Assembly (NCBI GenBank): GCA_963930775.1
Contig: OZ005703.1
Coordinates: 8,122,001-8,186,000 of the forward strand
Length of the DNA: 64,000 nucleotides
Source of the DNA: Cliona cf. orientalis
Lineage: Eukaryota > Porifera > Demospongiae > Clionaida > Clionaidae
Reading direction: 5' to 3'
Within the stretch, counting starts at the first letter, position 1, and each line of letters opens with the position of its first letter. The notes below the pieces were generated by a model that had not been told where the DNA came from, ran no database searches, and saw only the letters and a program-made list of their open reading frames with translations. Of the stretch, positions 1-61,447 are shown one piece after another. Position numbers and translations under genes: made by a program.

Positions 1-3000
1 TGGTGACGTCTATAGTGACTGCCCTATGGAACCAATCATAATGTAAGATAGTTTATACAACAAATATAAATAGAAATTCAAGTTTGTGCTAGGTCTGGGT
101 GCAGAGAACACTTTTTCGTGTGTCACCAGAACCCCCAGTACAACTAAGGAGCATTTCTATTATTTCTCTGAAATTCACAAATTATAGCCATACAACAAAA
201 GTAAATCTATAAATTGTGCAATGTATGTGCTCTACAGAGCTCTAGTTTATTTAGTGATCTTTACCCAATTTAACGAAATTTTAAAATTCCCACCGCACAG
301 TACTTCCTCACCATTCAGCACTGTAGTCTCCTGAGTCGTACCCCTGACATTGCTGACCTCACAGGTAAAGTTTCCCACAAAGCTAGCAACATCATCATCG
401 AAAAGAACGTTCTCATAAGTAGCCCTTTCAGCATCCACCAGCCTCTGGCTTTGCTCATAGAGAGTTTCGTTGATTAGCTGACCATCTTTTCTCCAAGTGA
501 CAGTGGCAGGAGGACCACCAGTGGAGGTACAGGTAAGGGTCGTTGAGTTTCTGTCAAATAGCAGAGATGTGATGGATGGAGAACCTGTGACAATAGGAAT
601 TCATTTTTGAATCAAAATGCACTTGTCTATCTCACCAGCTCCCTGAGGGTATATTCCAACATAGATGTTCTGGCTGGTTCCACTAGCATCAGGTATCTCG
701 CAGCGATACACTCCATTTGGAGCTGTGTTGAAACTGAATCGATTACGGTATAAGTTCACAGCACTGGACACTCCATTTTTGATGAATGGTGAATTATCAG
801 ATGCAACTGGTCTGCCATCAGGTAGGTACCACTCCCTGGTCACACTGGCTGCATTAGGTGTCTCACTGTCACTACAACACTCCAAGCTGGGAGTCAGGCA
901 GTAGATACCCAGTCCAATGCTACCACCAATATCGGTTACAGTCACAACACTGTTGTTATGGTAGAACTGACCATCCAGGAGAAAACCAAGGTCTAGAGAA
1001 GAAACAATGTAAATTACTTGTGCATGTGTGCATTTTACCCAGGCTACCCTTACCCTGGGGGGCAGTGGTGCTTTCTGTGTAAAAAGCTGGAGGGCCACTC
1101 ACATCAAGGTTAGGATTTACAGCTTGCACCTCAAATGTGTAGTTGGTCCGAGGTGGCCGGCCAGTGATGCTGAACATTCTGTCATTGCCTTCAGTGCCAA
1201 CGACTCTTTGAGCAACTCGGTCATTTGGGCTCAAGGTTGGATAAGAGACAACACGGTAGCTATCGGTATGTCCATTCCGATCTCGGCAGTTGACACGGTC
1301 CCACTGGATCGTGATGTTTGTAACACTCACTGAGACTGTTTGGAGTTCTTCAGGTATCCCAGGAGCTTGAGACAACATTCAATACAGGGATAACACATCA
1401 CAGTTGACAAATCAATGACTGTTTACAAGACTTACAAGCTATACACATGTAGCATGTGAAATACAATACCATACCTGCTTCAGGAGTTGTGACCAAAACC
1501 CTGGCTGATGAACTTCTCCCCGCGCTATTAATAGCGACGAGAGAAATTGAGTAGTCGCTATCTTCCTCCACTGGAGTGCTGGGGCCATTCTCAATAGTGT
1601 AATTGTTTTGAGAACTACTGAGTGTCATAGTAACTGGTGGATCTCCTATATTGTTGCCGCATTCATTAATAAAGTAGCGGTAGGCAAGTTCGTAGCTGTC
1701 CAATAGTCCTCCTGGATGCTCCCAGGTCACAGTGATAGAGGTCGCGGTAGTAGCAGTCACCATCAAGTTCATGGGAGGTGAAGGAGGAGTTTCTGCTCAA
1801 ACATGATGAGGAATTGATGGGGAAATTTGAATAGTAAATACCATTAATTTTTGAACATTTGATAATCTACTCTGGTACTCCCAATGGAATCAGCAATAAT
1901 GGAATTAATCAGATTCCCAACGAAACCTGAGGAACACATTTACATGTAGTAGAGTAATCCATGCACCACAATGCCCATATAAGGAGCATGCTTTGAAAGC
2001 GATAAAATTATGTGATAAAATAATGACAATCCCCTACTACTTTCAGTGATAGATAGCACACAGTTTCACGCTACATGTACCATGCTCCATGCTAGAGGTA
2101 TCCATGTACCATGCTGGAGGGTGCGAGCTTTTTAAATGTTGTGCACAGACATACTACGCTTTTCTAAGCTTTTCTTGGGTGGTCTATCCTAGAAAGGTCA
2201 AGCAAGTAAAATCTCCCTCCAGGAAGCATTGCATTGATTAGTGAACTAAGCAGGAACCCAATAGAGCAGGATACTGCCATGTCAACAATACATGTACTAT
2301 TATGTTGGTCATTTGCAAGGCTTCTATGGTGAAACCCTATAATCTGACCACCTGTGCATTGTATGGTCAGCAGTTTGGTTGAAATGAAAACTGCAAAATT
2401 TGCACAACCTTGACCACAATACTACCAAACATCAGAGATACAGGTAACTTTACTACTGTAACAGGTCATGAATCTGTTCTCCTAGTATAGTAAATCATGC
2501 AAGAGTAGAGGCACACACAGGAGATGAATGATGGCAAACACTGAGTTTGCGTGATCATGTAGGTCTCCACTCTATAAGCACAGCTGCATTTTAGAGTACT
2601 ATACTATCTACAGGCACAGATCAACAAGATTGCGCAATCATTGACTTATCATAACAGTACAATGCATCAGGAGTCCTAGGACAATCCCCTGCCAGCATAA
2701 TAGCACTAAAATAATATTATTGTATCTATATATAGCCATATTATTTATAATCCCTTGACTTAACTGAGACGCCAAACTCTCTGCATGTCTATTTGTGTAT
2801 GAATACAGGGCAGGTAACACAATACAATAGTTTGGACTCCACAGTCAAGCGGCTAAGAAAAGCCATACACTTACTCAAGCCCTTCAATGAATGCATTACA
2901 TGTAGCCTACAGGAATAATACACATACATGAGAAGACTAGGTTACCTTGTCCATTGATACAGTGGAATCCCAGCAACACCACTAGCATCAACACCAGGCC

Positions 3001-3033
3001 CAGGTGGGGCGATACAGGTGACCATTTGCCCAT
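1..3033 (-). CDS. Short-type Ig/FN3 receptor Z, 5' part only
   Basis: This is the first part of a cell-surface receptor running off the left edge. Exons in transcription order are 2946-3033 (signal peptide), 1475-1792 and 1054-1365 (FN3 domains), 636-992 (Cys-Cys/CEIPDA-type domain) and 312-584 (Ig). The start gives 29 residues beginning MGKWSPVSP, followed by a Leu/Val-rich core ending near NGQ, a convincing signal peptide. The signal exon ends in phase 1 and splices in frame to the first FN3. The later exons are 318, 312, 357 and 273 nt, all multiples of three. The FN3 pair contains the SITVTWEHPG and NGHTDSYRVVSYP signatures. It closely matches receptor C (39228-46673), which predicts that the missing part holds more Ig and FN3 domains, a membrane span and a tyrosine-rich tail. 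Ligand and function are unknown; adhesion or recognition is inferred from the domains. Confidence 0.82.
1793..2945 (-). other. First intron of receptor Z
   Basis: This intron lies between the signal-peptide exon and the first FN3 exon. It is closely related to the same intron of receptor C (45388-46585). At about 1840-1937 the minus strand shows a splice-acceptor-like TTCCTCAG followed by a short reading NLINSIIADSIGSTRV, which resembles the end of an FN3 or Ig domain. It may be a dead exon. I see no other coding signal. Confidence 0.5.
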
Positions 3034-4906: not shown

Positions 4907-5261
4907 TCATTGATCATCTTGTGCAGCAGTTGGCTGAGTTGAAGGAGTCTCAGCAGGTTTATTAGTGTTGCCATGGATACTGGTGGTTGTCACGGGGACA
5001 TAGGCTGGGCACTGGGTGAACTCATAGTCTCCAGTTGATGCCATTGGCTGCAGCTGCACTGCCTCTGCCTCTGTGGGCTGGGGCTTAGCCGGGGGAGGAA
5101 GTTTAACATCGTCATAAGTAGCTGTAGCCTGATTGTACTTGTCCAGTATCTCATACTCATGATCAGTGGTTTCAATGGTTTCATAAACCTCTCTCTCTTT
5201 GTTAGTGGTGGGGGACAGATCACTTAACATCACACTCCCTGGCGCTTCGTACGGTAAGGGT
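4907..5261 (-). other. Cytoplasmic tail exon of receptor A: ITAM, x6 spacer
   Basis: The last exon encodes about 118 residues and a TGA stop at 4907-4909. It contains VYETIETTDHEYEILDKY: YxxI, six residues, YxxL, with an acidic residue two positions before the first Tyr. This fits the ITAM consensus [DE]x(0-2)Yxx[LI]x(6-8)Yxx[LI]. Further Tyr sites are YDDV, DYEF and YVPV, and there is a PPPAKPQP proline stretch. The preceding exon (5313-5502) encodes about 30 hydrophobic residues and a basic RSRRSQF stop-transfer, so this segment should be cytosolic. None of the Tyr sites fits the strict ITIM pattern. Signalling through tandem-SH2 kinases is an inference from the motif. Confidence 0.8.
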
Positions 5262-8200
5262 CTGTGTAAGAGAATAGCATAGAAATTTATCTGTTGAATG
5301 GATTATTTTTACTTTTGGTTTGGACTGAATTGAGATCTTCGGCTTCTAAGTACCAGAGCAACGATAACGATTATGGCTATGGTTGCTGCAATGATGAGCA
5401 CCACAGCTATCACTCCACCTACCACTCCTCCTATGATGGCCACTGTGTTGTCAGAGCTGGATGGGGTAGCAATGGACATTCGATTTCCAGGACGCACAGG
5501 AGCTGCAAAAATAGAGAGATTGATGCGTGATAAAATTCATACAACAAAGAATTAAAATGGGGAGGCTCAGATAACAAAGTTAGCTGTATACCCTTTCACG
5601 TTCAGCTACCTGACATCCCAGCTGCAGTCGATGTCCTAACAGTGACATCATACTCAGCTCCTGATTGGAGTCCTGAAATAACAGCTTGATTCTGTGTCCA
5701 AGGAACAGTCACAGTTCCTCCTACTTCACTCTGCCTCTTCCTAGAGTCAATGATGATGGTGTACGTGACAATATAGTTAGCCAATCCCTTCAGCTCCACC
5801 AAAGTAAACTTGTTCCAGCTCACTCCTATGGAGGTGGGGTCAAATCTCACAACTACAACATTTTCTGGCAGAGGTGGCTCTGGAAATGAGAAAAGAATAT
5901 TACATGGACCTTAAATTTACACAATAGTCTCTGATTGCTCCACTTTATATACCTCCTTCCTGGGTGAAGCAGTAGGTTTGATTTTCTTCCCCACATCCAG
6001 CCAGGTTGAGGGCCTTCACTGTGATACTGTAGGGTACCTCAGCAGCTGAAAATGTGCAGCAATGATATTATGCATAATCTAATACAGCAATAATATACTG
6101 AGTCCAATGACGGATGCCTCTCTTATATCAACAAATTGCTCATTCACAGCAGACTGGATGACCTCCCTGGTGCCTGGCCTGTGCTCTAGTCTGTTCACTA
6201 TCACTTGATAGCTGACCACTTCACTGCCCAGCCGGGTAGGCAGATCCCAGGAGAAGGAAAGTTCAGATGGCGAAGAACTCACAGCACAAACCAAGTTCCT
6301 AATCTCACCAGGAACTATAATATTATTGACATGAAACTTACGATTTTCATACAACAAAGTGCATTGTAAGAACTCACAGTCAGTGTTAACTTGTATTGTA
6401 TCTGTTCCAAATGTATAATCATTAATTTGAGCCTCTGGGATGTTCACTACAGATCGACAGATGTACTGGCCTCTGTTGTTGGAAGTGATGTCACTGAAAA
6501 TGAGCTCTCTAGTTTGAGGATTCATTCTTGGATTACTAAACACTACAGTAGGCACTTCAGAGCCACCAGGGGCCACCCATACGATGGTGGGTGGAGAGAA
6601 GAGATTCTCCACTTGAGTAGCAGTGCAGTTGAGGGTCATGACCTCTCCACATCCATCCAATTGACGACGAGACACAATGGAAATAGTAGGAGGTCGGGAG
6701 GGAAGAGCTAAAGGTACGTAGAAGGAAACAATAAAGTACTAGTATGTATGCAATACATTAGCTTACGTGCAACTACCAAATTGTAAGTATCTTGGCCACT
6801 GTATTCTATGACGTGTGGAGAATTGTCTGAAGAACGAATAGTGTAAGTCACAGTGTACTCTCCAGAACTATCAGTGGTCACAGGTAGCAATGATAGCATA
6901 ATCGAATATGGAGAAGCTGTGATCACTTGTGGGACAGTATCACCAGTCCACATCCCTGAAAGGGAAGCAGGAGTGTTGACATTTGAGTCAAGGTCAATGC
7001 TGCCAGTAATAATCAAGTTTGTTCCATTGTAGGCAGTGGGGTGAGGGAGGACTGAAAACACAGGACGGGGAACTGCAGAGATTAACAATGACTTAGTTGC
7101 AGCTCAATTTCAAATCTTTCACACTGATAACTTACTTTGAACTCGGATGGTTTGACTGGCAGTCCGACTGAGAGAATTGATTCCTTGTATATCTATAGTA
7201 GCTCTGCATGTGTACACACCTGCTTGGGATGTGCGTATGCGGTTGAAAGTCAGCGTCCTATTTGTAGAACCTCTGACTCCCAACTGGTCACCCATAGTTG
7301 TATCAACAGTACTGCTTCCCTGGGGGAATTCCCACACCAGGGTTGGTCTCTCTACAAGGTACTCATCAAAAAGAGCAGTACAGGTTATGGTATCCTGGCC
7401 ACCAGCTTCAACAGATATTCCTTGGGTAGGGGAGACAGAGACAGTAGGAGCTTGGAGAACTGCAGAATAAAATCAGAGACATTAAAATTTTGAATTAGTT
7501 TACAGTGACACTTACGGCCAATACTGATGGACTCTGAGCCAGAGGTAGAGTCACTAGTAATCACATTTGGCAGTGATGGTGGTGATCTTATGTAGGCCGA
7601 ACAGTTGTATGCACCAGCATCAGCTTCAAGAAGATGACTGAATGTCACGTTAGTCTCAAAAGTGTTTTCTCCAACTAGTAACGGCCGTGGGGAAACACTG
7701 ACTCGACCAGTGTCTGATATTCCATTACCCACGATGCTGCTCTCAACTATAATATCTGTATCCACTCCAGTTGTGTTAGGGGTGATGATACAAGTGAGGG
7801 AGAAGGAGGTACCAGCATTGAGGGTAGTATTGCGACTGCGATGGAAGGTCAAAGGTGAGATGGGAGCAGGCACTACAAGGACAAAGAATTGTTATAGTTG
7901 CTCATGCATTTACATGAACTGAGAGCTCACATTTGACTTGAACTGGGAAGGCAAAGAGTTCAGGATGGTTGGTAACTGTCCCAGGTATGGTCTGAAGAGT
8001 TCTGCAGGTGTAGACTCCAGCTTGAGAGGTGTAGAGGCTATTGAAAACCAGTCTGCTTATGAGACGAATATCAGTGGTAGGACCAACTCCAGAAATGGTG
8101 AAGTTATCTCCACTGCTAATGATATTGCCCCTTGGATCAAGCCACTCCACTGCTAGAGTGGATGTCAGTGGGAGATCTAGCTGTCTCCTGGTATCACAGA

Positions 8201-11200
8201 TCAGTGTATAGCCAGAAAATCCAGCTCCAGGGAATCCTTCAGCAGTTATATCAACAAATTGTGTAGGAAAACCTACAGAATAATATACGAATATCCTATT
8301 ATTATCATAAGCAATAAGCTGTCACCATTGAGACAATCATATCACACGTACCAGAAACATTAAAAGTTCGTGAGTTAGATGTGGTGGCAGTAGAAATAAA
8401 GGTAGTGTCTTGAGGAGTCACAGTCACATCACACTCATATGTTCCAGCATCAGTGACACTCAAGGGATTGAATCTGAGAGTGATGTCATATGGAGGTGAG
8501 CTCATTGGAGGGTTAACAATGGTTATTCTTCCATTTTCATCTCCTGGAATTAGCTCAGTCCCATTCCTATTCCAGATTCCCTGTACTGTGACTGAAGTGT
8601 CCACCACTTCACCAAGAGTGATGCTACAGGTGAAGATGAGGTCCAGGCCTTGGAAGAAACTGGTGTTCCGTGGAGATCCAGAGATGATTGGAGGTGGAGG
8701 CAAAACTGGATATGGCAGGAACAAAATGGGCATCATGCATGTAACTGTAGGTACCATAACAGTACAACTGTTTACATTGAATAGAAACGTTTGTTGTTCT
8801 AACTCCAGGGATATCCACTCCAGCCTCTGGGATGTTGAGGCTGGCAGTGCAGGTGTATCTCCCAGCATGACTGGTCCGCAGAGAGAGGAAGGAGAGGAGA
8901 GGAGGTGCGGAGGTAACATCACTTGATAGACTAGCATCTTCCCTAGTCCAAGTCAGTACAGGGGTGCCTCTGATTCCTTCTTGTATTGATGCTGAGCAGT
9001 TCAGTGTGAGAGGCTGTCCAGCCATCTCCAGGCGATTGAAAGGATTGACACTCACAGTAGGAGGGGAGGGAACTGCAGAGAGTAGATTAATGTGTACTTG
9101 CAACATAATTATTCAATGAATCTGTTTCTCACAATTAACAATGACTGAGGCAGCTCCTTCTCCCATTTCACTTGCAGTGACAAAGGTTGGCACATTAGGA
9201 GGAGGTCTTGCTCTAGCTCGGCAGGTGAAGGTGGTGTTATCAGCTATGCTCAGAGGGTCAAAGGTGAGAGTGCTGATGAATGATGGTCTGGAGCCAGTTA
9301 CTAAAGAAATGGTCACTCTAGAATCATCGTTGGATAAACGTGTGCTTCCTCTCAGCCAAGTGATGTCCATATCAGATATTTCTATATCAGTATCAGTGGC
9401 AGAGTTGATGGAGATGGTACAGGTGAGCGTGAGAGGAGCTATAAGACCAGCAAAAAGAGGACCAGAGGGAACAGTCATGACCACATCAGGAGTGGAGACT
9501 GCATGGGAAATAATTATATCATACTTCTATCTTAATTTGTAAATAATTTTTCATAGAAACTCGTTTTGCACAAAATGACGAAACCTTTTTACACTAAAAT
9601 AGTTTACTTGTACATATACTAACTTATATAGCAAACATCAAACATAATAAGTATAGTGTACATTTGGTATGAACAAAAGTATTGTCACATGAAAATTTCT
9701 AGTGCAAATAAAATTAACGCGAATTATGGCACGCATATATGTACTATAATATTACATATAATATACAATAGAAGCATCCTTACTTTGGATTTCAAGACTT
9801 TCTGTAGTAGAAGGCATCAATGCTGTATCAAGAGCTGGAGAGGTCAAAGTACCACTACACACAAAACTCCCTTCGTGAGATGTCCGTAGTGGGTCAAAGG
9901 TCAGAGTAGAAGTGACTGTTGTATCTCCAGTGGTACCAGATACAGTGATTCCGTTTCCATTGGTGACAGCCACTCCCCCTGTGGTCCATATTGCAGTTGG
10001 AGAATTAGTCAAACCCCCCACTGTCTTGGATACATTACAGGTTAGGCTGTAGACCATCCCAGCTCTGGCAGTGCCTGAACTACTGACAGTGGCAGTGATG
10101 GCAGTAGGTGGAACTGAGAAGAAAGAGAGAAATATGCATAACTTGATAGAGATGATATGAGGGGCAAGGGCTACTGAAAGGTGCATAAATAGGTTTAGTA
10201 TCCTGACAGACACCAACATTATCTTACCATTAACATTCACAGTAAAATTTTGCGCTGCTGTTACTGTCATTCCATTCCCTCCATCTCTAGTCACCCTACA
10301 CACATAGACCTGTGTGTGAATGCTGTCATTGACAGGAGAGAACACTAGATCCAGCTCCTGGACGCCAGTGAAAGCAGCACTCTCCACCACCATCCCATCT
10401 CTCAGCCATTCTATCATTGACGCTCGAGCATCACTCTTGCATGAAGCAGTCGCTGACTCACCAACGCTGAACTGATCTCGAACTATGAACACACCTAAAT
10501 TTAATAATATTATACACACGGAAGATACACATGATGACAATGGCATAACATTATAAACAGCCAACTAACCATTTAGCTCCAAGGTCTCTTGAACTGGAAC
10601 TATGAGTCTAACATTACTGACCTCACAGGTAAAGGCACCCACAAAATTAGTAACATTGTCATTGAAGAGAACACTCAGGTAGGTAGCCTCCACAGCATCC
10701 ACCAGTCTCTGGCTTTGCTCATAGAGAGAGAGATCCACTGGGGCACCATTCTTACTCCAAGTGACAGTGGTAGGAGGACCACCAGTGGAGGTACAGGTAA
10801 GGGTGGTCGAGTTCCTGTCAAACACGAGAGATATGATGGACGGAGAACCTGCAACACCAAGGAATAAATTGCTGGATAAATTGTGTTTCCAAACTATGTA
10901 TCTCACCATCTCCCTGCTGAGGAGAGTACATTCCGACATATATATTCTGGCTGGTTCCACTAGCATCAGGTATCTCACAGCGATACACTCCACTTGGAGC
11001 TGTGGTAGAACTGAATCGATCATTGTGCAAACTCACAGCACTGGACACTTGATTTTTGATGAATGGTGAATTATCAGATGCGACTGGTCTGCCATCAGGT
11101 AGGTACCACTCCCTGGTCACACTGGCTGCATTAGGTGTCTCACTGTCACTACAACACTCCAAGCTGGGAGTCAGGCAGAACAGAGCTGACATGAAAATAC

Positions 11201-14200
11201 TATTGCCAATATCAGTCACAGTCACAACACTGTTGTTACCATAGAGCTGACCATTCAGGAGAAAGCCAAGGTCTGCATGAATAGAGAATTCGAAGTAAAA
11301 TCTCAAAGGCATGTATACTTTTTACCCTGAGGGGCAGTGGTGCTGGCTGTGTAAAAGGCTGGTGGACCACGCATGTCGACGTTGGGATTTGAGGCCTGAA
11401 TTTCAAAGGTATAATTTGTGAGAGGTGGCAGTCCACTAATACTAAATATTCTATCGTCATCTCCAGTCCCTATAATCGTCACAGCATCAGTTCTAACACT
11501 AGGATCAGATGTTGGATAATAGATAAGTCTATAGGAATCAGTGTGTCCATTGCGCTGCTGACAGTCAACACGATCCCATCGGATTGTGATGCCAGTGACA
11601 TTCACAGAACTGGTAGTAAGAGACTGCACTAACCCAGGGGCTGAGGAATAGATGTGGTGTAATTATAGTAAATGTAACATGCATACATGTACCTGCTTCA
11701 GCAGTAGTGGTCACGGTAGGCTGTGATGCTACACTCCTTGTCACACTGTTGACAGTTGTTAGTGTGATTCTGAACAGACTATCCTCCTCCACTGGAGTTG
11801 AGGCACTGTCGTTCAAAGTGTATCTTCTCAGAGTGCCATCGTTCACTGATACGGGGGCTGAGGTGAATGGTGTGCTACCACATTCTTCAATAAAATAATG
11901 ATAGTTGATCTCATATCTGTCCACAGCATCAGCTCCCTCTGGCTGCTCCCAGGTCAAAGTGATGGAGGTAGGTGTGGTAGTAACTGCCCTCAGGTTAGTG
12001 GGAGGAGGGAGGGGGGCTGCAGTGAAAGCATAATAATAATATTATTATTCTAGATACAGTGATGCAATGAGGTACATACCAACAGTTATGTTAGTTGATC
12101 CCGATGTTGTTCCACCAGAAGTGATAGTAGCTTGGCAGGAGTAGCTACCAGTTGTAGCTGCACCAACTGAGACAGTGCTGACATATAATATTACGTATGT
12201 TGTAGTGTTCACCATCACAGTTGGTACTGGGTTAGCTGGCTTAAACATCACATCTGTTGGTCCAGTCCACTCTGTGTTGACAGTCACTGGAACATCCACT
12301 GCTGAACTCAACTCTACAGTACAGGTCAGAGTAACACTGGCTCCTGCAATCAAGCCCAGCGGAACAGTGACAGTCACAGCAGTAGGAGCTGGGACTGAAG
12401 GAAGAGAAAATACCTAAAATTAATAATAATATTATAAAAACAAGATCTTACAATCGACTTCCACCATGTCTCTATTCTCCACCACCACACTGCCCACAGT
12501 GGCTTGACATGTGTAGGTACCAGCATGAGAGGCCAGTAAGGGAGAGAACTGAAGTTGACTGATGTTAGTCAGCTGAGTTCCAATGCTATCAAACCACTGA
12601 TAAGTTGTTGGATCAGTTGTTCCAGTGACAGAGCAGTCCAGGGCGTAGTTCTGGCCAGCAGTTGGGGTGCCAGTGGAGGTGATCATAACTCCGACTGAAA
12701 CTATATTGTACACAGGTAAACTTCAATATCAATAAGAATATTTTGCAGTTACATACCTATGTTACCACAGAGATGCTGTGTATCTCCAGCAGCATCAGGT
12801 ACTTCACAACAGAACAGTCCAGTTGGCGACATGACATTAGTATTGAGGCGGTTCAGGTTGACTGTTCCATCATTTCCTCTGCTTCGGTAAAATGTTGTAG
12901 CCACACCTTGAGCTGGAACACTTGTTCTCCCATTAGGAAAGTACCACTCTCCAAATCTGTTTGGAGCAGTGGCACAACATGGCATCCTGTCAGTGATACA
13001 CTGGAGTCCAGTGTTGGATGTAGTATCAGTCTCTCCAATCTCAGTGATTTGTATGGCACTGTTGTTAGCATAGACCACTCCCCTTAGAGAGAGGTAGACA
13101 CCTGCACACATGCAACACAAATGATTGTTTTAATTCATAATGCATATTATAGAGCATCTTACCAGTACCAACAGTGATCCTATCCATTCCAGTTACTCCA
13201 GTACCACCGATAATGAAAGAGTTTGCTGTCACTAACCTAATATTAGCCAGGCAGGTGTACTCTCCAGAGTGGTTTCTCCCAAATGGGCCAACAGTGGCTG
13301 TACTGGTGTACCTAGTATTGCTCTCCATCACTGAGTTAGCAACAGGAAAAACTGTTATTCCCATAGGTCCTGATATCTGAGCAGTCACATTCACTGGAAT
13401 ATCCACCAATGGACTCAAATCAACAGTGCACGTCAGAGTAACAGTTGATCCAATTGGACAAATGGGGCTAGCTGGAGTATTGGTAATCATCACTGCTGGA
13501 TTTGGTACTGCATGGAGCAGGAAAAAGAGAATGATGCATAAGGAGTACAGATCGGGGTAACCATCTGTCCTTTTGAAACTTATACTCCCCTTCCCATACA
13601 TGTACACCACTGCTGCTATGATCCTTCCATAGCCACCAATCCGTTTTCATAAGCTAAACGTTGAAGACTTATGCGTTAATGAAACATCAATATTATTGGT
13701 GCTATTGGTGAGGGTATTCAACCCTCCACTTAAAACTTCTGCCCCTTACATCCTTCAACAACTACCAATCCAGCATACTAAATCTTCTGAACTAACAATA
13801 TACAGCAACATCGATACTATTGGTGCAATAGAAGCTATAATCCTCTTAAAACTTACAAGTCAGTTGAACACTCTCAGAGTTGGCTGAGGCAGTGATAATG
13901 GGACCACTGAGTAGACTGGAAGTGACAGTGGCTCGACAGGTGTAGCTTCCAGCATCAGAGAAGGTGAGAGGAGAGAAGGAGTGAGTAGCCATTGTCTGAC
14001 CTGATACCACTGCACCATTCTTAAGCCACTGGTAGGTCACCATAGCATCAGTGAGCCTCTCAGCTCCAGTGACAGTACAGGTGAGGGAGTACATTGATCC
14101 CACCACTGGAGTAGGCACACTGGATGCAACTCTGACAGTGATGGTTGGGTCTGGAGATGAGAAGACACAAGAAAATAAAACCTCAAGTTATAATCACTTC

Positions 14201-19065: not shown

Positions 19066-19219
<154 letters not shown>

Positions 19220-19239
19220 TCCGAACCTGATGAAACATG

Positions 19240-19517: not shown

Positions 19518-19522
<5 letters not shown>

Positions 19523-48451: not shown

Positions 48452-48806
48452 TCATTGATCATCTTGTGCAGCAGTTGACTGAGTTGAAGGAGTGTCAGCA
48501 GGTTTATTAGTGTTGCCATGGATACTGGTGGTTGTCACGGAGACATAGGCTGGGCACTGGGTGAACTCATAGTCTCCAGTTGATGCCATTGGCTGCAGCT
48601 GCACTGCCTCCGCCTCTGTGGGATGGGGCTTAGCCGGGGCTGGAATTTTAACATCCTCATAAGTAGCTGTAGCCTGATTGTACTTGTCCAGTATCTCATA
48701 CTCATGATCAGTGGTTTCAATGGTTTCATAAACCTCTCTCTCTTTGTTAGTGGTGGGAGACAGATCACTTAACATCACACTCCCTGGCGCTTCGTATGGC
48801 AAGGGT
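48452..48806 (-). other. Tail exon of receptor D: ITAM, x6 spacer
   Basis: It is almost identical to the tail of A, with VYETIETTDHEYEIL intact in frame. The later site reads YVSV instead of YVPV. Its conservation despite frameshifts upstream suggests the upstream damage is recent or is bypassed by splicing. Confidence 0.75.
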
Positions 48807-51800
48807 CTGTTTATTAGAGAATAGCATAAATATTAGAAATTTTCTATTGAATGGATTATTTTTACTTTTGGTTTGGACTAAATTGAGATCTTCGGCTTTT
48901 AAGTACCAGGGCAACCGTAATAACAATTACGGCAATCGTTGCTGCAATAATGAGCACCACAGCTACCACCACCCCTCCTATGATGGCCACTGTGTTGTCA
49001 GAGCTGGATGGGGTAGCAATGGACATTCGATTTCCAGGACGCACAGGAGCTGTAAAAAATAGAAGAGATTGATACATGATAGGGAGGCTCAGATAACAAG
49101 GTTTGTTGAATACTCTTTCACGTTCAGCTACCTGACATCCCAGCTCCTGTCGATGTTCTAACAGTAACATCATACTCAGCTCCTGATTGGAGTCCTGAAA
49201 TAACAGCTTGATTCTGTGTCCAAGGAACAGTCACAGTTCCTCCTAATTCACTCTGCCTCTTCCTAGAGTCAATGATGATGGTGTACGTGACAATATAGTT
49301 AGCCAATCCCTTCAGCTCCACCAAAGTGAACTTGTTCCAGCTCACTCCTATGGAGGTGGGGTTGAATCTCACAAATACAACATTCTCTGGTGGAGGTGGC
49401 TCTGGAAATTAGAATATTACGTGAACCTAGCTTAATTTACATACTATGATGGTCTCTGATTGATGAGCTTCTCCACTTTACCTCCTTCCTGGGTGAAGCA
49501 ATAGGTTTGATTTTCTTCCCCACATCCAGCCAGGTTGATGGCCTTCACTGTGATACTGTAGGGTACTTCAGCAGCTGAAAATGTGCAGCAATAATAATAA
49601 TAATATTATATAATCTAATACAGCAATAATAATACCAAGTCCAATGATGGATGCCTCTCTTCTATAAACAAACTGTTCATTCACAGCCTGAGACTGGGTG
49701 ACCTCCCTGGTGCCTGGCCTGTGCTCTAGTCTGTTCACTATCACTTGATAGCTGACCACTTCACTGCCCAGCCGGGTAGGCAGATCCCAGGAGAAGGAAA
49801 GCTCAGATGGTGAAGAGCTCACAGAACAAACCAAGTTCCTAATCTCACCAGGTACTACATTGACACAAAATTTATGATTTTCATACTACAAAGTGCATTA
49901 TAAGAACTCACAGTCAGTGTTAACTTGCACTGTATCTGTTCCAAATGTATAATCGTCAATTTGAGCCTGTGGGATGTTCACTACAGATCGACAGGTGTAC
50001 TGGCCTCTGTTGTTAGGAGTAATGTCACTGAAAATGAGCTCTCTAGTTTGAGGATTCATTCGTGGATTTCTGGACTCTCCAATAGGCACGTCAGAGCCTC
50101 CAGGGGCCACCCATACGATGGTGGGTGGAGAAAAGAGATTCTCCACTTGAGTAGCAGTGCAGTTGAGGGTCATGACCTCTCCACATCTATCCAATTGACG
50201 ACGAGATACAATGGAAATAGTAGGAGGTCGAGAGGGAAGAGCTGAAGGTAGAAAGAGTACTAGTGTGCATAACAGCTACATTTGTATGTACTACATTAGC
50301 TTACGTGCAACTACCAAATTGTAACTATCTGTGCCATTGTATTCTATAATGTGCGGAGAATTGTCTGAGGAACGAATAGTGTAAGTCACAGTGTACTCTC
50401 CTGAACTATCAGTGGCCACAGGTAGCAATGACAGCATAATCTGATATGGAGAAACTGTGATCACTTGTGGGACAGTATCACCAGTCCACATTCCTGAAAC
50501 AGTGACAGGAGTATTGACAGTTGAGTCAAGATCAATGCAGCCAGTAGTAGTCAAGTTTGTTCCATTGTAGGCAGTGGGGTGAGGGAGGACTGAAAACACA
50601 GGACGGGGAACTGCAGAGATTAATATTGTCTCAATTGCAGCTCAATTTCAAATCTTTCACACTGACAACTTACTTTGAACTCGGATGGTTTGACTGGCGG
50701 TCCGACTGAGGGAATCAATTCCTTGTATGTCTATAGTAGCTCTGCATGTGTACACACCTGCTTGGGATGTGCGTATGCGGTTGAAAGTCAGCATCCTATT
50801 TGTAGTGCCTCTGACTCCCAACTGGTCACCCATAATTGTATCAACAGTGCTACTTCCTTGGGGGAATCCCCACACCAGGGTTGGTCTCTCTACAAGGTAC
50901 TCATCAAAAAGAGCAGTGCAGGTTATGGTATCCTGGCCACCAGCTTCAATAGATATTCCTTGGATAGGGGAGACAGAGACAGTAGGAGCTTGGAGAGCTG
51001 CAGAATAAAATCAGAGACATCAAAATTTTGAATTAGTTTACAGTGACACTTACGGCCAATACTGATAGACTCCAAGCCAGAAGTAGAGTCACTAGTGATC
51101 ACATTTGGCAGTGATGATGGTGATCTTATGAAGGCCGAACAGTTGTATGCACCAGCATCAGCTTCAAGAAGATGACTGAATGTCATATTAGCCTCAAAAA
51201 TATTTTGTCCAACTGATATCGGCCGTGGGGAAACACTGACTCGATCAGTGTCTGATAATCCATTACCCACGACGCTGCTCACCACCATAATTTCTGTATC
51301 CACTCCAGTTGTGTTAGGGGTGATGATACAAGTGAGGGAGAAGGAGGTACCAGCATTGAGGGTAGTATTGCGACTGCGACGGAAGGTCAAAGGTGAGATG
51401 GGAGCAGGCACTACAAGGACAAAGAACTGTTATAATTGCTCATACATTTACATGAACTGTGAGCTCACATTTGACTTGAACTGGGAAGGCAAAGAGTTCA
51501 GGATGGTTGATAACCGATCCAGGAATGGTCTGAAGAGTTCTACAGGTGTAATCGCCAGCTTGAGAGGTGTAGTGGCTATTGAAGACCAGTCTGCTTATGA
51601 GACGAATATCAGTGGTAGGACCAACTCCAGAAATGGTAAAATTATCTCCACTGCTAATGACATTGCCCCTTGGATCAAGCCACTCTACTGCTAGAGTGGA
51701 TGTAGGTGGGAGGTCAGGCTCCCTGTTGGTGTTGCATATCAGTATAGCCAGAGAATCCAGCTGTAGGAATACCTTCAGCAGTGATATTAGCAAGTTGAGT

Positions 51801-54800
51801 TGGAAAACCTGTAGAGAGAATAATACTATATGAGTATTACATTATAATTATCATAGATATATATCAGAAATAGCAGTAATTTGTGAGTCATTGTTGAGAC
51901 AATAATATACATACCAGAAACACTAATAGACCGTGAGTTGGATGTTGTAGCAGTAGAAATAAAGGCAGTATCTTGAGGAGTCACAGTCACATCACACTCG
52001 TATGTTCCAGTATCAGTGATACTCAAGGGGTTGAATCTGAGAGTGATGTCATATGGAGGTGAGCTCATTGGAGGGTTAACGATGGTTATTCTTCCATTTT
52101 CATCTCCATTCATCAGCTGTGCGCGATTCCTATTCCAGATTCCCCGTACTGTGACTGGAGTGTCCACCACATCACCCAGAGTGATGCTACAGGTGAAGGT
52201 GAGGTCCAGGCCTTGGAAGAAACTGGTGTTCCGTGGAGATCCAGAGATGATGGGAGGTGGAGGCATAACTGGATATGGCAAAAATAAAGTCAATGCCGGT
52301 ATCATGCCAGCACAATTATATACATTGAATAGAAACATTTGTTGTTCTATCTCCAGATATGTCCACTCCAGCCTCTGGGATGTTGAGCCTGGCAGTGCAG
52401 GTGTATCTCCCAGCATGACTGGTCCGCAGAGAGGGGAAGGAGAGGAGAGGAGGTGCTGAGGTAACATCACTTGATAGACTAGCATCTTCCCTAGTCCAAG
52501 TCAGCACAGGAGTGCCTCTGATTCCTTCTTGTATTGATACTGAGCAGGTCAGTGTGAGAGGCTGTCCAGCCGTCTCCAAGCGATTGAAAGGATCAATACT
52601 CACAGTAGGAGGGGAGGGAACTGCAGAGGGAAGATTATTACACATGTACACTTGTAACACCTTTATGTTCTTGAATGGTTTATTACAACACTCACAGTTA
52701 ACAATGACTGAGGCAGTTCCTTCTCCCATTTCACTTGTAGTGACTAAGCTTGACACACCAGTAGGAGGTCTTGCTCTGGCTCGGCAGGTGAAGGTAGTGT
52801 TATCAGCTGTACTCAGAGGGTCTAAGGTGAGGGTGCTGGTGAATGATGGTCTGGAACCAGTCACTGAAGAGATGGTCACTCTAGCATCATCACTGGACAA
52901 AGGCATGCTTCCTCTCAGCCAAGTGATGTCCATATCAGATATTTCTATATCAGTATCAGTGGCAGAGTTGATGGAGATGGTACAGGTGAGAGTGAGAGGA
53001 GCTATACGACCAGCAAAAAGAGGACCAGGAGGAACAGTCGTGACCACATCAGGAGTGGAGACTGCATGGGAAAGTATCATACCACTACTCAGACGATAGA
53101 GACATCCTTACTTCGGATTTCAAGATCTTCTTGAGTAGAAGGCATCAATGCTGCATCGAGAGCTGGAGAGGTAAAAGTACCACTACACACAAAACTCCCT
53201 TCGTGAGATGTCCGCAGTGAATCAAAGGTCAGAGTAGAAGTGACTGTCGTATCTCCAGTGGTACCAGATACAGTGATTCCGTTTCCATTGGTGACAGCCA
53301 CTCCCCCTGTGGTCCATATTGCAGTGGGAGAATTGATCAAACCACCCACTGTCTTGGATACATTACAGGTCAGGCTGTAGACCATCCCAGCTGTGGCAGT
53401 GCCTGAACTACTGATAGTGGCAGTGATGGCATCAGGTGGGACTAAGAAGAAAAAGAAATGTGTAATCACATTAAGAGAAAGGGGACTGAAAGGTGCACAA
53501 AAGATATTTATTATTAATTTTTGACAGACACCATCATCACCTTACCATCAACATTCACAGTAAAATTCTGCGCTGCTGTTACTGTCATTTCATTCCCTCC
53601 ATCTCTAGTCACCCTACACACATAGACCTGGGTATGAATACTGTCATTGACTGGAGAGAACACTAGATCCAGCTCCTGGATGCCAGTGAAAGCAGCACTG
53701 TCCACCACAATCCCATCTCTCAGCCATTCTATCATCGATGCTGGAACATCACTCTTGCATGAAGCAGTCGCTGACTCGATCACCAACACTGAACTGATCT
53801 CGAACTATAAATACACCTAAATTGTATTCACATCATAGTCACACGAACATATTACATGAAATGATATTAATCACATTACATAATAAACGGCCAACTAACC
53901 ATTGAGGTCCACAGTCTCTTGAACGGGAACTGTGACTCTAACATTACTGACCTCACAGGTGAAGGTACCCACAAAGTTAGTAACATTGTCATTGAAGAGA
54001 ATACTCTGGTAGGTAGCATCCACAGCATCCACCAGCCTCTGGCTTTGCTCATAGAGAGAGAGATCCACTGGGACACCATTCTTCCTCCAAGTGACAGTGG
54101 TAGGAGGACCACCAGTGGAGGTACAGGTAAGGGTCGTCGAGTTTCTGTCAAACAGCAGAGATGTGATGGAGGGAGAACCTAAAAATATGTCATTAAATTC
54201 ATTGAATCAAAATGTACTTGTCTATCTCACCATCTCTCTGAGGGTATATTCCAACATAGATGTTCTTGCTGGTTCCACTAGCATCAGGTATCTCACAGCG
54301 ATACACTCCACTTGGAGCTGTGTTAAAACTGAATCGATCACGGTGCAAGCTCACAGCACTAGACACTCGATTTTTGATGAATAGTGAATTATCAGATGTG
54401 ACTGGTGTGTCATTAGGTAGGTACCACTCCCTGGTCACACTGGCTGCATTAGGTGTCTCACTGTCACTACAACACTCCAAGCTGGGAGTCAGGCAGAACA
54501 GAGCTGACATGAAGAAACTACTGCCAATGTCAGTCACAGTCACAACACTGTTGTTACCATAGAGCTGACCATCCAGGAGAAAACCAAGGTCTAGAGAAAA
54601 AACAATGTAAGCAGCATTCTATTTCATATAGTTACACTCACCCTGAGGAGCAGTGGTGCTGGCTATGTAAAAAGCTGGTGGGCCGCGCACGTCAATGTCC
54701 GGATTTGCAGCTTGCACCTCAAATGTGTAGTTGGTCCGAGGTGGCAGGCCAGTGATACTGAGCATTCTGTCATTGTCTTCAGTACCAGAAAGTGTTTTAG

Positions 54801-57800
54801 CAACTCGATCACTTGGATCAGAACTCAAGGTGGGAAAGTTGACAATTCTATAGCCATCAGTATGTCCATTGCGCACCTGACAGTCAACCCGATCCCATCG
54901 GATGGTGATGTTAGTGACACTCACAGCACTGGCAGTAAGGGACTGCACTAACCCAGGGGCTAAGGAGTAGAGACAGTGTGATTAAATAATATGCAAAATT
55001 TTAATATGTACCTGCTGAAGCAGTAGTGGCCATGGCAGGCTGTGATAGTACACTCCTTGTCACATTATTGACAGCTGTTAGTGCGATTCTGAACAGACTA
55101 TCCTCCTCCACCAGAGTTGAGACACTGTTGTTCAAAGAGTATCTTCTCAGTGTGCCATCATTCACTGATACAGTGACTGGAGGGATTGGTGGTCTACCAA
55201 CCTCAGATTCACACTCTTCAATGAAATACCGGTAGTTGATCTCAAATCTGTCCACAGCATTAGCTCCCTCTGGGTGCTCCCAGGTCAAAGTGATGGAGGT
55301 AGGTGTGGTAGCAAATGCCCTCAGGTTAGTGGGAGGAGGGAGGGGGGCTGTAGTGAAAGCATATTATTTATTCTTGATAATATTAAATATTAATGTAAAA
55401 TACAGGCATACAATGAGGTATGTACCAACAGTTATGTCAGTTGATCCAGATGTTGTTCCACCAGAAATGATGGTAGCTTGGCAGGTGTAGCTACCAGTTC
55501 TAGCTGCACCAACTGAGACAGTGCTGACGTATGTTGTAGTGTTCACCATCACAGCTGGTACTGGGTTAGCTGACTTAAACATCACATCTGCTGGTCCAGT
55601 CCACTCTGTGTTGACAGTCACTGGAACATCCACTGCTGGACTCAACTCCACAGCACAGGTCAGAGTAACACTGGCTCCTGCAATCACACCTGGTGGAGCA
55701 GTGACAGTCACATCAGTAGGAGCTGGGACTGAAGGAAGAAAAAATTACAACAAAGATGCTAATAAACAATAATATACAAATCCTATGGTGCAAATCTTAC
55801 AATTAATATCCACGATGTCGCTATTCTCCACCACCACACTGCCCACAGTGGCTCGACATGTGTAGGTACCAGCATGAGAGGCCAGTAAGGGAGAGAACTG
55901 AAGTTGACTGGTACTAGTGAGCTGAGTTCCAATGCTATTAAACCACTGATAAGTTGCTGGATCAGTTGTTCCAGTGACAGAGCAGTCCAGGGAGTAGTTC
56001 TGGCCAGCAGTCAGAGTACCAGTGGAGGTGATCACAACACCAATTGAACCTACAATAATTTTGTAAACAGGTGAATTTTTGATAATACTGTATAGCCGGA
56101 AAATTTGGCAGGGAATTAAAATTTGGCGGTTTGGCGGTCTATATTACAACCGCCAAATTAAAATCTGCCAAAAATTTCCTACTCACATATATATGTATGG
56201 CAATCCCGTACCGAACCGCCAAATTTAAAACTGCCAATATTTCCGGCTATACAGTAATAATTTTAGTGACAATTTTTTTACCTATGTTAGCACAGACTCT
56301 GAGAGGCCGGGTATCTCCAGCAGCATCAGGTACTTCACAACAGAACAGTCCAGTTGGCATCATGATATTAGTATTGAGGCGGTTCAGATTGACTGTTCCA
56401 TCATCTCCTCTGTTTCGGTAAAATGTTGTAGCCACACCTTGAACAGAAACAGCTGTTCCATTAGGAAAGTTCCAGTCTCCAGCTCTGACTGCTGCACAAC
56501 ATGGCATCCTGTCAGTGATGCACTGGAGTCCATTGTTTGAATTTGGAGGTGGTGGCATAGTAACAGTATCAGTCTCCCCGATCTCAGTGATTTGGATGGC
56601 ACTGTTGTTAGCATAGACCACTCCCCTTAGAGAGAGGTAGACACCTGTTATGTGTAAGGACTGCTATTGTTGTTTCACGGGCCCAACCAACCCTCTAATT
56701 TGCAGATTTGAAAAGAAAATGTAAATGTTTAAGTTTGCATGCGCAAACAACACGTGGTCAACTGAAATCAGTATAGCAATGGCGTCGATGAATGCTTGGC
56801 CCTGTGTGTCTATCAAACGAGGTGGATCAACAGTCGTTTCTCGTAAGATTGTTGAGTGCGAGTAGACAGATACACTCGTAGAGAGGGTGGACCCGAGTTT
56901 GAGCCACAGAAAATCAGCAACTCTAATTGCTTTTTTTCAAACCGACCTACCGACCCTGAACTTTTGTCTGGCATGCCCATGAAACAACTATTGCAGTTGA
57001 AGTGGCCTAACAAGTAATTTGTGTGCATAATGCATGTTGAGCAACAATATTACGGAATATTATGGATTTAAATTTTAACACATCTTACCTGTACCAATAG
57101 TGATCTTATCCATTCCAGTTACTCCAGTACCACCAATAATTAAAGGGTTCGCTGTCACTAATTCAACATTAGCCATGCAAGTGTACTCTCCAGATTGGAT
57201 TCTCTCAAATGGGCTGACTGTGGCTGTACTGGTGTATCTAGTAGTGCTCTCCATCACTGAGTTAGTAACAGGAGTGATTGTTACTCCCATAGGTGCTGAT
57301 ATCTGAGCAGTCACAGTCACTGGAACATCCACCAATGGACTCAAATCAACAGTGCAGATCAGAGTAACAGTTGATCCAATTGGACGAACGGGGCCAATAG
57401 GAGTACTGGTTATCATCACTGCTGGATTTGGTACTGGTCAAGGAGAGGGGTATATATGACAGAGGCAATCATCAAGAACATCAATAAAATTTTAAGTTAT
57501 AATGACTTCACTCACTCTGCATAGTGACAGTTGTGGATACCGAGTCCATAACACTGCCCAGTATAGCTCTACATGTGTATGTCCCAGCATCAGAGGCTGC
57601 CAGTGGGTTAAGTGTCAGTGTGCTCATGCCTCCATTCGTCACCACTCCAGATGTGATCATGTTGTTCATAGGACCCATCAGCCAGGTGATGGTTGGCTGA
57701 TCATTTGATCCAGTCACAGTAACAGTACATCTCAGACTGTAGCTCTCCCCAGCAGTGGCAGTACCAGAAGAAGTGATGGGGGAGACAGTGACAGAGACAG

Positions 57801-60800
57801 GAGATGGTGAGGTGGCTGGGAAAATTACAGAATGGAAATACATACTGCTGAATCGGAATTTCATCGAGGCCATTTCCTAGCAACCAAATTTATCGGCTAT
57901 CAGCTAGAGGATCACAGCATTGTAAAGGGATTATATCTACCAAAATAGTTGCCTTAATAGGGGCTGGTGCATTCAACTGGTTAATCATGTATCTAGGCAA
58001 CTATTACATGTGTGCACACATGCATAACACAAGACGTACACACTGCAAGAGACCAACTGACCTGGAGTCTGTGTTGTTGGCATTTCAGTGGTGATAGCAT
58101 CAGTAGTTGTTGCTTCAGTAGTAGTTTGCATTTCACTGGTAGTAGTAGTTGCCTCCATAGTGTTAGTTGGAGCGATAGTTGGAGCATCTGCATAATAATA
58201 ATAATTATATCAAACTAAACTGATGTATTGACATCCAAATCTCAACTATTACTAACTGACAGAAGTGAAACCCATTCAAGGAGGGTGATCATCTTACCAA
58301 CAGTAAAATCCAGTGGGGGGGAGGGGGGGGGGGGCTAGGGCCACTACGCTATTCGGGAATTGTTAACATTTTAATCATTATTTTAGGCATACATAAACAA
58401 TAATCCTCTAAGAATTTTAATATCCACCGTGAGTACCAATTCTCCTGCTATACAGCACATTATGCCATGTCTTACATGAGAGTGTGATATTAAAAGGATT
58501 AGACACAGCACTGATGGTGCTTGGGAGGATGGTGGATGAGATATCAACTGCACATGAGTACTGTCCAGTGTCAGAGTAAGCAAGGGAAGAGAATGACCAG
58601 GTTTGCAGTATTTGATCTGGCACCACCAGTCCATTCCTGGACCACTGGTAGGTTGTGGCAGGATTAGTGATCATATCAGCTCCAATGATATTGCAGGCAA
58701 GGGTTAGTGCTGCATCTACCATTGGAGCTACATCACTACTAACAGTGACAGTAATCATAGGGTCTGCCGGAAAGGTCAAAGGTTGAAATACTGAAAGCAG
58801 TAACTAATACTCACTCTGCACAGTGACTGTTATTTCTGCAGATCCTACCCTACTTTCCAGCACTGCTCTACATGTGTATGTTCCAGCATGAGCAGCCGTC
58901 AGTGGGTTAAAGGTCAGTACATACACATCACCCATTGTGCTGACCGTCTCAGAGGAAACCGGAGTGCCTGTTGGATCCAGCCAGGTGACACTTGATCCAG
59001 TCACAATAGAGCAGGTCAGGCTATAGACATCACCAGCGATGTTCTTACCAGAAGCAGTGATGGTCGCAAGCATGTCAACTGTAGAGAATGAGAAAAATAT
59101 AATATTATTACAAGTATGTTTGATATCACAATCATGGAATAATGGCCAATATGCATGAGTTATTCACAGTATTAAAGCTCACAGAAAATCTCATCTTCCT
59201 AGCTGTACGCATGTCAATCGTTAGTACAGTGCGCATGCCAGCTGCAGCAGCACGAACTTTGAACCTATTAGAATTATTTCATAGACCACACCCCTCAATG
59301 CAGGTGTCGAATCTACCACCAGGCTATGACGAAAGAACAGACCTCGTCTCTTGTTTCGCTCGAGGCTTGGCATGCGATGGCCTGCTGAGCAGGCCTCTCG
59401 AAATGCGCGGCACTTTGCGCCGTTCGTTCGAGAATGCATCTCTATGGCCACCCTTGTTTGTGCACACGGCACTGCAATTCTGACCAATCGTGGGCCTTCT
59501 GAACTTGTAGAAGAGCGCATCTTTTATGCCCTCCAGGTTAGGATACGGACTATATAAGAAAAATGATCATCTGAAAAATGTTTTTCGTTGTAGCTATATA
59601 GTATAATAATCATTATCTATCTGTATGCACAAAGCCTAGGAGTAGCTACATACAGTATTCAGTATCTTGAGATCTATACATACGTATTTCTACGCGTATG
59701 TTTCGGCATACTGGGGGGAAGGCATATTATGTCAAAGCTACACAATAGATCTCAAGAGGGGCTATCAGCAAAAAGGGGGTGATTACCCTCCCCCTATTAA
59801 AATGCGACTTCATCTGCACATGCTTGACACGTAAACGGTTGTTGATATAGTATTTCTCACATTCAGCACCATTGAAATGAGTGAGGCTTCAGCCAAAATA
59901 ATTAATAATAAGCACACTGGGATGGCATAATCTACAATACCTGTACCTATTATTATAGAAGAAAAGTCACTGGACACAAGGTATATTATTATGTTCTAGT
60001 TAGCTCTTGTTCACTTAATACAAATCATCATAATACTATGAGCTGAAATACTCACCAATGTTTATATACAGATCAACCGGTGACCCATTGGCTTGAGGAA
60101 TATTACATCGAAACTGTCCAGTAATGGTGCCAGTAGATCTGCGGTTCAGTAGGATATGCCGAGACCCCCTGCTTCTGTAGTAGCCGTTTGTAGTAGTGCC
60201 ACTCAAAAGTACCATGCCACCATCAGGCATATAAAACTCTCCAGCACGCGTTTCACCACCAGTATTCCTACAACAAGTGGTGCTGTCGGTGGTACACTGA
60301 AGGGCATCAGCTCCCTCTCCAATGTCAGTCCTCAGCACTGTGGAGCCATCAGGGTAGGCTACTCCATTGAGGTAGAAGCCAAGAGTTCCAGCTGAGATGG
60401 ATAAAACGATACCATTAATGTTTTTACAGACACTATGATTATCTCTATAGGGATAATAATGATTATTATGATTCATTTTTATCAGTGCATAAAATAATAA
60501 TTATGCACATTTACATGTATAATAATATTTTGTACCATGGTTGTAACATTCTGACCAATCAGATTAATTTATAGGAGGTGTCTAAATAAAATAGACACCT
60601 ACCTCTGAGACTATGAAATTTTACATGATCATGCCCGCTAGGGTAGTTACAGCATCTTTTGTTAGTGAAAGAGATAAAGTACAGAGCTCTAGTGCTATGC
60701 AGAGTACTGTATGCAGATCATTAGTGGGCAGGTCTTACTGCGTTAACTGAATGGATGGAGCGAATGATTGCTAGGCCGTAGATACATTGTTAGGACCACG

Positions 60801-61447
60801 TGCATGTAGCCCATGGTACAAGTCGGTTACATCACTTGGTTCGGTCTCTACGCGATTTACACAGCCTCGGGCCTCCAGCCCTCGGTGTGTAAATCCCGTA
60901 GAGACCTTCACGTGTATAGAGTGAATATGCATTACTCCATTGCTATACCAATATCCAAACTTAATATTATTGATACGTAGCCAGATATTATGGCAGAGCG
61001 TGGTTCAGTCTCTTGCCATACCAATCTTTTTAGATAAGCTTGTAACTTCTTTTGAGTTTGTGTGAACATGCAGTACTAAATATCAGCTCCTAAATCTTAA
61101 TTGGCTGTATACAAAATCAAGCATCAACCCCCACTTCAGCCACACCAATGTTCATGGGCTACCTACGCCCCTAGCTGTTATCCGAGAGAAGTGAATGTGC
61201 GCATGCATTCCATGGGGAATTGGTTATCAAAAGTAATGAGAGAAGGAACAGTAAAATAGGATGGAATCATGTACACATGTACGCAGCCATGTATGCATTG
61301 CCACTATAAAGAAGTAATTTTAACATTATGACTACCGGTAACTTGTATGCACATTGAAATAACCTCACCTTGTCCATTGGTCATATTGATAGTGACAGTC
61401 ACCAACATTATTGCCATCATGCACACAATGTGCAGTACCTTCCCCAT
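48452..61447 (-). CDS. Long Ig/FN3 receptor D, two frameshifted exons (probable pseudogene)
   Basis: Same family as A, in 29 exons: 61369-61447 signal peptide (MGKVLHIVC start); 60056-60391 Cys-Cys domain; Ig 58815-59078, 58476-58763; Thr-rich 58062-58187; Ig 57516-57815, 57089-57433; Cys-Cys domain 56282-56644; Ig 55801-56049, 55426-55728; FN3 55012-55347, 54642-54959; Cys-Cys domain 54231-54590; eleven Ig at 53900-54178, 53546-53816, 53112-53441, 52696-53061, 52324-52620, 51915-52268, 51469-51808, 51054-51410, 50674-50997, 50305-50610, 49912-50241; split FN3 49636-49854 plus 49482-49574; FN3 49132-49401; membrane span 48866-49049; tail 48452-48806. Two exons break frame: 53546-53816 (+4 nt) and 51469-51808 (-2 nt). 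Counterparts of A's exons 15002-15337 and 13857-14150 are gone. Since the broken exons are phase 1-1, skipping both would restore a frame of about 2576 aa; otherwise this is a pseudogene. Confidence 0.78.
51469..51808 (-). other. Receptor D Ig exon with 2-nt deletion
   Basis: The exon is 340 nt; the matching exons of A (7931-8272) and B (24329-24670) are 342 nt. Between GGCTATAC and GGGAGCC on the coding strand, D is two bases shorter than B, so the first half (to SGYT) and second half (REPDLPPTSTLAVEW) lie in different frames. Splice sites are kept. Confidence 0.85.
53546..53816 (-). other. Receptor D Ig exon with 4-nt insertion
   Basis: The exon is 271 nt against 267 nt in A (10228-10494) and B (26389-26655). 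The plus strand reads GACTCGATCACCAAC where A and B read GACTCACCAAC, so GATC is extra at about 53777-53780. The frame is lost within the first 20 codons of the exon. Splice sites are kept. Confidence 0.88.
56086..56256. mobile_element. MITE with TACTGTATAGCCGGAAA ends
   Basis: Inverted ends TACTGTATAGCCGGAAA and TTTCCGGCTATACAGTA, with AATTTGGCGG repeats inside. The outer TA pairs fit a TA target duplication. It sits in an intron of receptor D, 25 nt from the donor of exon 56282-56644. It is absent from the same intron of A and B. Confidence 0.85.
56661..56996. mobile_element. MITE-like insertion in receptor D intron
   Basis: The ends CTGCTATTGTTGTTTCACGG and the reverse complement of 56975-56996 match at about 18 of 22 positions. 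The interior (336 bp in all) is non-coding. The same intron in A (13102-13162) is only 61 nt, so this is an insertion. Confidence 0.75.
58188..58475 (-). other. Site of a lost Ig exon in receptor D, with G-tract
   Basis: Receptor A has an Ig exon (15002-15337) at this position. D keeps the downstream splice-donor neighbourhood (GGAGGGTGATCATCTTACCAACAGT at 58278-58302) but then passes into a G-rich run (about 58315-58334) and unrelated AT-rich DNA. The Ig exon has been deleted. Confidence 0.7.
59079..60055 (-). other. Enlarged intron of receptor D
   Basis: It is 977 nt against 572 nt in A (16208-16779). Its right part (about 59570-60055) matches A. About 59200-59550 is a GC-richer stretch with no match elsewhere in the window, probably an insertion. 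I found no clear terminal repeats or gene in it. Confidence 0.5.
60392..61368 (-). other. First coding intron of receptor D with palindromes
   Basis: It contains a hairpin at 60576-60600 (AGGTGTCTA and its complement) and an imperfect palindrome at 60843-60906 (GGTCTCTACGCGATTTACAC ... GTGTGTAAATCCCGTAGAGACC). The latter resembles the repeat at 43120-43220 in receptor C. No exon was found. Confidence 0.65.

Follow-up and report, generated by a model that had tools for sequence, protein, structure and literature searches.

A 64,000-nucleotide stretch of the genome of the sponge Cliona cf. orientalis (hereafter the window; C15:8122001-8186000, where C15 is contig OZ005703.1, of 8,350,398 bases, in an assembly of 216.8 Mb in 149 contigs) carries a file of large genes for receptors with immunoglobulin (Ig) and FN3 domains, and raises the question of which kind of receptor system they form. 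The initial annotation had described five related receptor genes on one strand, all with activating-type tails. This holds in part: the five genes (A, B, C, D and Z) are present, on the minus strand, and A, B, C and D end in a tail resembling an immunoreceptor tyrosine-based activation motif (ITAM), but Z, whose tail was read beyond the window, has no ITAM. Our answer, to which we give somewhat better than an even chance on sequence grounds, is that the window covers the central part of a row of giant single-pass paired recognition receptors, all on the same strand, related to receptor-type protein tyrosine phosphatases (RPTPs) and with ITAM and RPTP outputs.

An array of ITAM-tailed and phosphatase receptors

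Running the labelled exons against C15:8082001-8296000 disclosed 12 receptor genes in single file, all on the minus strand, at C15:8.09-8.27 Mb. These were, in order, four RPTPs (about 8266-8220 kb, with gene borders deduced from domain order), the ITAM genes F, E, D, C, B and A, then Z, and then the RPTP Y (8113844-8090317), so that six genes have an ITAM-like tail, five are RPTPs and one (Z) has a tyrosine-free tail. The window covers the middle of this array, which extends past both window ends, and the same scan found more exons for Ig and cysteine-rich Ig (CC) domains past Y. The region C15:7.2-8.29 Mb held 48 of the 150 scored matches to CC1, the N-terminal CC domain (rows counted by eye; 150 of the 446 CC candidates were scored, and the phosphatase and kinase candidates in part), as well as many phosphatase matches.

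What appears to tie the window genes to receptor phosphatases lies behind their tails, and had been missed in the initial annotation, as had the array on both sides. Broken exons of protein tyrosine phosphatase (PTP) domains D1 and D2 follow B, C and E (Table 1; the tail of E falls outside the window), and the D2 pieces behind B and C sit past the stop codon of the tail. In these leftovers the D1 catalytic motif is gone and the D2 motif CSDGIGRTG is retained; at C15:5.85 Mb, too, a tail exon is followed by D1 pieces. In the RPTPs of the array, WPD and HCSAGVGRTG are kept in 5/5, and D1 was confirmed by Pfam in the three that were tested. Genes A to D have the Ig plus FN3 ectodomain and the single transmembrane (TM) segment of an Ig/FN3 RPTP, and no D1 catalytic motif (HCxxGxxR) was found behind them; by their own tail, the window genes are not RPTPs, and their neighbours look like RPTPs. 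Since PTP exons stand behind ITAM tails, the ITAM genes seem to be derived from RPTPs by gain of a stop-bearing tail exon upstream of the phosphatase exons, a direction of change that we infer. Long CT/GA microsatellites lie inside the broken PTP exon blocks (window positions 18958-19603, 36159-36476 and 62693-63008) and also in neighbouring RPTP genes.

Gene anatomy and exon mosaics

The signalling ends seem to have been exchanged as exon blocks, because the ectodomain of Y, which is of the A/B/D/E type, leads into exons for a phosphatase (assigned to it from their order and strand), and because C and Z have a common ectodomain and different tails. Within each of the two sets (C/Z and A-B-D-E/Y), clustered genes resemble one another in the ectodomain and differ in the signalling end, as paired receptors do. 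The exons shared by A, B and D have 69-100% protein identity (signal peptide, 56-72%). The cassette loss, hybrid exon and frameshifts noticed at the outset were all recovered: in B, Ig2, IgV and Thr are missing completely, as are most of Ig1 and the first part of Ig3, and one exon begins as Ig1 and ends as Ig3, while D is without IgV and IgS and is probably broken in this assembly because of frameshifts in Ig8 and Ig13.

The splice models used phase 1-1 exons with GT-AG borders, the TM-tail junction being the exception, and gave reading frames open from signal peptide to stop in A, B and C. Gene A encodes three CC, 19 Ig and four FN3 domains, and gene C one CC, seven Ig and four FN3 domains in the order FN3-FN3-CC-7 Ig-FN3-FN3-TM-ITAM-like tail. 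The TM and tail of Z are outside the window, since its low end cuts the gene.

Table 1. Receptor genes, selected exons and phosphatase leftovers in the window (positions 1 to 64,000)
Feature	Position	Strand	Remarks
PTP leftovers downstream of ITAM gene E	62775..63510	-	D2 exons D2b, D2c, D2d; PF00102
Gene D, long receptor	48452..61447	-	29 modelled exons, signal peptide to ITAM-like tail
CC1 of D	60056..60391	-	N-terminal CC domain, cysteine-rich Ig fold
TM exon of D	48866..49049	-	
ITAM-like tail exon of D	48452..48806	-	YETI-x6-YEIL
Gene C, short receptor	39228..46673	-	16 exons, 1459 aa; Pfam scan
TM exon of C	39607..39826	-	
ITAM-like tail exon of C	39228..39549	-	YETI-x5-YEIL
PTP leftovers downstream of C	36229..39013	-	second part of D1, D2 pieces
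Gene B, long receptor	21303..33744	-	27 exons, 2657 aa
CC1 of B	33140..33478	-	
Hybrid exon of B	32777..33079	-	Ig1 at start, Ig3 at end
TM exon of B	21723..21906	-	
ITAM-like tail exon of B	21303..21654	-	YETI-x5-YEIL
PTP leftovers downstream of B	18985..20963	-	D2 exons, D2a broken
Gene A, long receptor	4907..17810	-	31 exons, 2982 aa
CC1 of A	16780..17121	-	
TM exon of A	5313..5502	-	
ITAM-like tail exon of A	4907..5261	-	YETI-x6-YEIL
Gene Z, 5' part	1..3033	-	signal peptide, FN3, FN3, CC3, Ig7; rest past window end

Among A, B, D, E and Y, nonsynonymous divergence (dN) was highest in Ig1 (0.26), the signal peptide (0.21), CC1 (0.18), FN2 (0.17) and Ig3 (0.17), a ranking by which divergence leans towards the N-terminus, if not strictly. 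The mean ratio of dN to synonymous divergence (dS) was 0.49-0.63 in CC1 and Ig1 and 0.14 in TM, and dN was above dS in 94 of 510 overlapping windows (uncorrected). In these counts D was kept despite its frameshifts, which distort the Ig8 and Ig13 values, the second Thr exons of E and Y were grouped separately, and the hybrid exon of B was left out. The exon and overlapping-window values do not show diversifying selection, and dN/dS between paralogues says little about polymorphism in a population. As a separate observation, paralogous exons between 4907 and 61447 are often 90-95% identical and the short introns between them often 50-80%, with a dS of about 0.1 in many exons despite the low intron identity; exon-limited conversion or noise in the intron alignments could account for the contrast.

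The ITAM-like tail

The tail exon has 22 matches genome-wide, 16 of which were aligned (the others being two pieces on C5, one on C13, C15:4897759 and two on C3). EYEIL is kept in all 16 aligned tails and the first tyrosine in 15 of them. The dN/dS ratio was 0.13 in the motif, 0.37 in the whole tail and 0.53 in the part after the motif, and the eight lowest of 105 dN/dS windows all fall on the motif: the ITAM is the most constrained stretch of the tail. In its textbook form, an ITAM consists of a pair of YxxI/L motifs, spaced by 6-8 residues, in a cytoplasmic tail. The tails of A and D fit this rule, whereas those of B and C, whose gap is corrected here to five residues, are one residue short. 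A two-YxxI/L pattern with a gap of 5-8 arose in 0.5-0.9% of shuffles of the A, B and C tails. Separately, C13:5849404-5849817 has TM-like and tail-like matches in a single open frame of 887 aa, perhaps an intron-free relative of the ITAM receptors.

Candidate readers of the motif

Searches for SH2 and kinase domains, together with reading of the region, located an SH2-ankyrin-SH2-kinase gene at C18:99-107.5 kb, which is the gene of a Shark/HTK16 (Syk-family) kinase in this genome. Against HTK16-like proteins from Actinia and from Rhopilema the joined protein shows 47-49% identity, and against a Schistocerca Shark 42%. In a kinase tree it grouped with five other sequences and one labelled 'scpid', which we take to be Sycon (94/95), with the cnidarians apart (97/99), a placement that is compatible with a sponge origin but does not prove it. 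At C8:9936138-9938107 there are SH2, SH2 and PTP matches in that order, a candidate SHP-like protein. For Drosophila, Src42A, the Draper ITAM and Shark are described in one chain, and a form of Draper with an immunoreceptor tyrosine-based inhibitory motif (ITIM) dampens through Corkscrew (PMC4503800).

A paired-receptor model and its alternatives

According to the model that we favour, exchange of exon blocks, the ectodomain exons being phase 1-1, would join ectodomain lineages to an ITAM-like tail, to D1+D2 or to a tyrosine-free tail. The N-terminal CC/Ig domains would bind a ligand on another cell or on a microbe, a Src-family kinase would phosphorylate the ITAM, and the Shark/HTK16 kinase would dock on it through both of its SH2 domains and fire an activating signal. 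An RPTP paralogue with the same ectodomain would meet the same ligand and strip the phosphate in the same contact, the tyrosine-free copy could compete as a decoy, and the response would be set by the balance of outputs; what the sequence shows is the gene anatomy, the mosaic identities, the PTP leftovers past ITAM tails, the constraint on the ITAM and the presence of the kinase gene, and ligand sharing, signal direction and cell context are parts that we infer. Vertebrate paired receptors (FcR-like, KIR, LILR) likewise form clusters whose members have similar ectodomains and differ in their signalling ends, and they use ITIMs and often adaptor-borne ITAMs; the sponge array differs from them in that the ITAM is in cis and the phosphatase would be built into the receptor and not recruited by an ITIM. 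We propose only tentatively that a shared ectodomain, coupled in one gene to an ITAM and in the next to an intrinsic tandem phosphatase, marks a large recombining sponge recognition complex, of a paired-receptor kind that we did not find described.

Several points weigh against the paired-receptor model. The exon scan (E <= 0.001) detected no PTP leftovers downstream of D or A, and not only in Y but also in the four other RPTPs D1+D2 were assigned by order and strand. Eight of the 16 aligned tails have a five-residue gap, below the textbook six, with x6 in six and x7 in one, which has YETV at the first position, and another tail has lost the first tyrosine. An in-frame stop is present in four of the 16, and this, together with the frameshifts of D, indicates that part of the receptor family is decaying. 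Mean dN/dS was above 1 in no exon among A, B, D, E and Y (IgS about 1). Moreover, that an RPTP opposes ITAM signalling is assumed as a premise, and phosphatases of the CD45 type are also able to activate Src kinases.

The array might instead consist of immune or symbiont receptors that bind microbes or damaged cells, the ITAM driving uptake or migration, a reading that overlaps with the pairing model and that we consider possible at well below an even chance. The Draper ectodomain is of a different kind from those of the array, and the likeness is in the ITAM in the receptor's own tail and in the Shark-type kinase gene of the sponge. Draper, Src and Shark are reported at work in fly macrophages, with an inhibitory Draper form that, unlike the array, uses an ITIM (PMC4503800), and the oyster CgIgIT2, with five Ig domains, TM and an ITAM, is described as recognising bacteria (PMC11999971). 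However, no microbe-binding domain types were seen in the ectodomains, and long Ig/FN3 ectodomains would be at least equally suited to cell-cell contact.

Allorecognition is a plausible use of the array, and an allorecognition complex, in which partners on touching tissue are bound and fusion or rejection follows from the balance between ITAM and RPTP, also overlaps with pairing; as an explanation we hold it to be tentative. It is consistent with clustered Ig-superfamily genes, ITAM-like tails, broken copies, mosaic exons and the position near a contig end, and with the CC domain, an Ig fold whose nearest match among solved chains is Ig1 of NCAM, an adhesion domain, which leaves a relationship to the Hydractinia Alr proteins undecided. 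The Alr genes are described as large Ig-superfamily clusters with V-set/I-set type domains, many pseudogenes and ITAM/ITIM-type motifs (PMC11067881, PMC11999971, PMC12065747). The array is likened to them by description, and differs in having up to 22 Ig-type plus four FN3 domains, phosphatase leftovers and RPTP neighbours. Similarly, the Botryllus fester co-receptors (FcoR) are presented as a family in which the signalling motif can be either an ITIM or a hemITAM, alternative splicing being one way to switch between them (PMC12065747), whereas the alternative in the sponge would be a tandem phosphatase in the neighbouring gene. The mean dN/dS, never above 1 among paralogues, argues against allorecognition.

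It is rather unlikely that these are ordinary adhesion or developmental RPTPs expanded in the lineage, with the ITAM-like tail as a generic phosphotyrosine dock. Ig plus FN3 plus D1D2 is the standard RPTP plan, and the array resembles LAR-type RPTPs in its Ig/FN3 ectodomain and TM, followed by D1 and D2 in Y and its four counterparts; two of the six protein matches of gene C are arthropod RPTPs, and purifying selection prevails. In contrast to LAR-type RPTPs, the window genes end in a stop-bearing ITAM-like tail with phosphatase exons remaining only as broken pieces, and array growth, mosaic exchange and swapped ends would be unexpected for conserved developmental receptors. That the ITAM genes are functionless decaying RPTP fragments is very improbable in spite of the frameshifts of D, the broken leftovers and the stops in tails, as the frames of A, B, C, E and F run uninterrupted across 1459-3019 aa and the ITAM has the low dN/dS given above.

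By analogy, the array would work like Alr, FcoR and vertebrate paired receptors and yet be classed as none of them. The recombining Ig-superfamily cluster with ITAM-like tails proposed initially stands, and its five-gene extent gives way to a larger RPTP/ITAM complex. One review (PMC12065747) describes the receptors of invertebrate allorecognition systems as unrelated and yet finds ITAM/ITIM-type signalling common to them across animals from cnidarians up to mammals; a locus in a sponge that pairs ITAM receptors with RPTPs on common ectodomains would carry that shared logic to the sponge branch. Activation and inhibition would then be interchangeable exon blocks, and ITAM receptors may originate from RPTPs in which a tail exon is gained ahead of the phosphatase exons. 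If the array controls self/non-self, an ITAM/phosphatase balance of the NK type would be at work, and perhaps have begun, near the base of the animals. The genes, exons and kinase named here are concrete targets for tests.

Other kinase, SH2 and phosphatase matches

Adjoining the receptor complex, C15:6722933-7060834 has many tyrosine-kinase matches, most with internal stops, which could be an intron-rich or a decaying kinase array. A giant multi-kinase protein may be encoded at C17:2316562-2325288, where ten of the listed tyrosine-kinase matches share a single open frame of 2925 aa with one SH2 match. On the plus strand of C7:1892335-2144565, 13 SH2 and 12 tyrosine-kinase matches, mostly sharing frames of ~400 aa, suggest an array of SH2-kinase genes. 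Lastly, an SH2 match directly adjoins a PTP match at C4:7450163-7451017 and at C4:7510920-7511769, possibly SH2-phosphatase genes.

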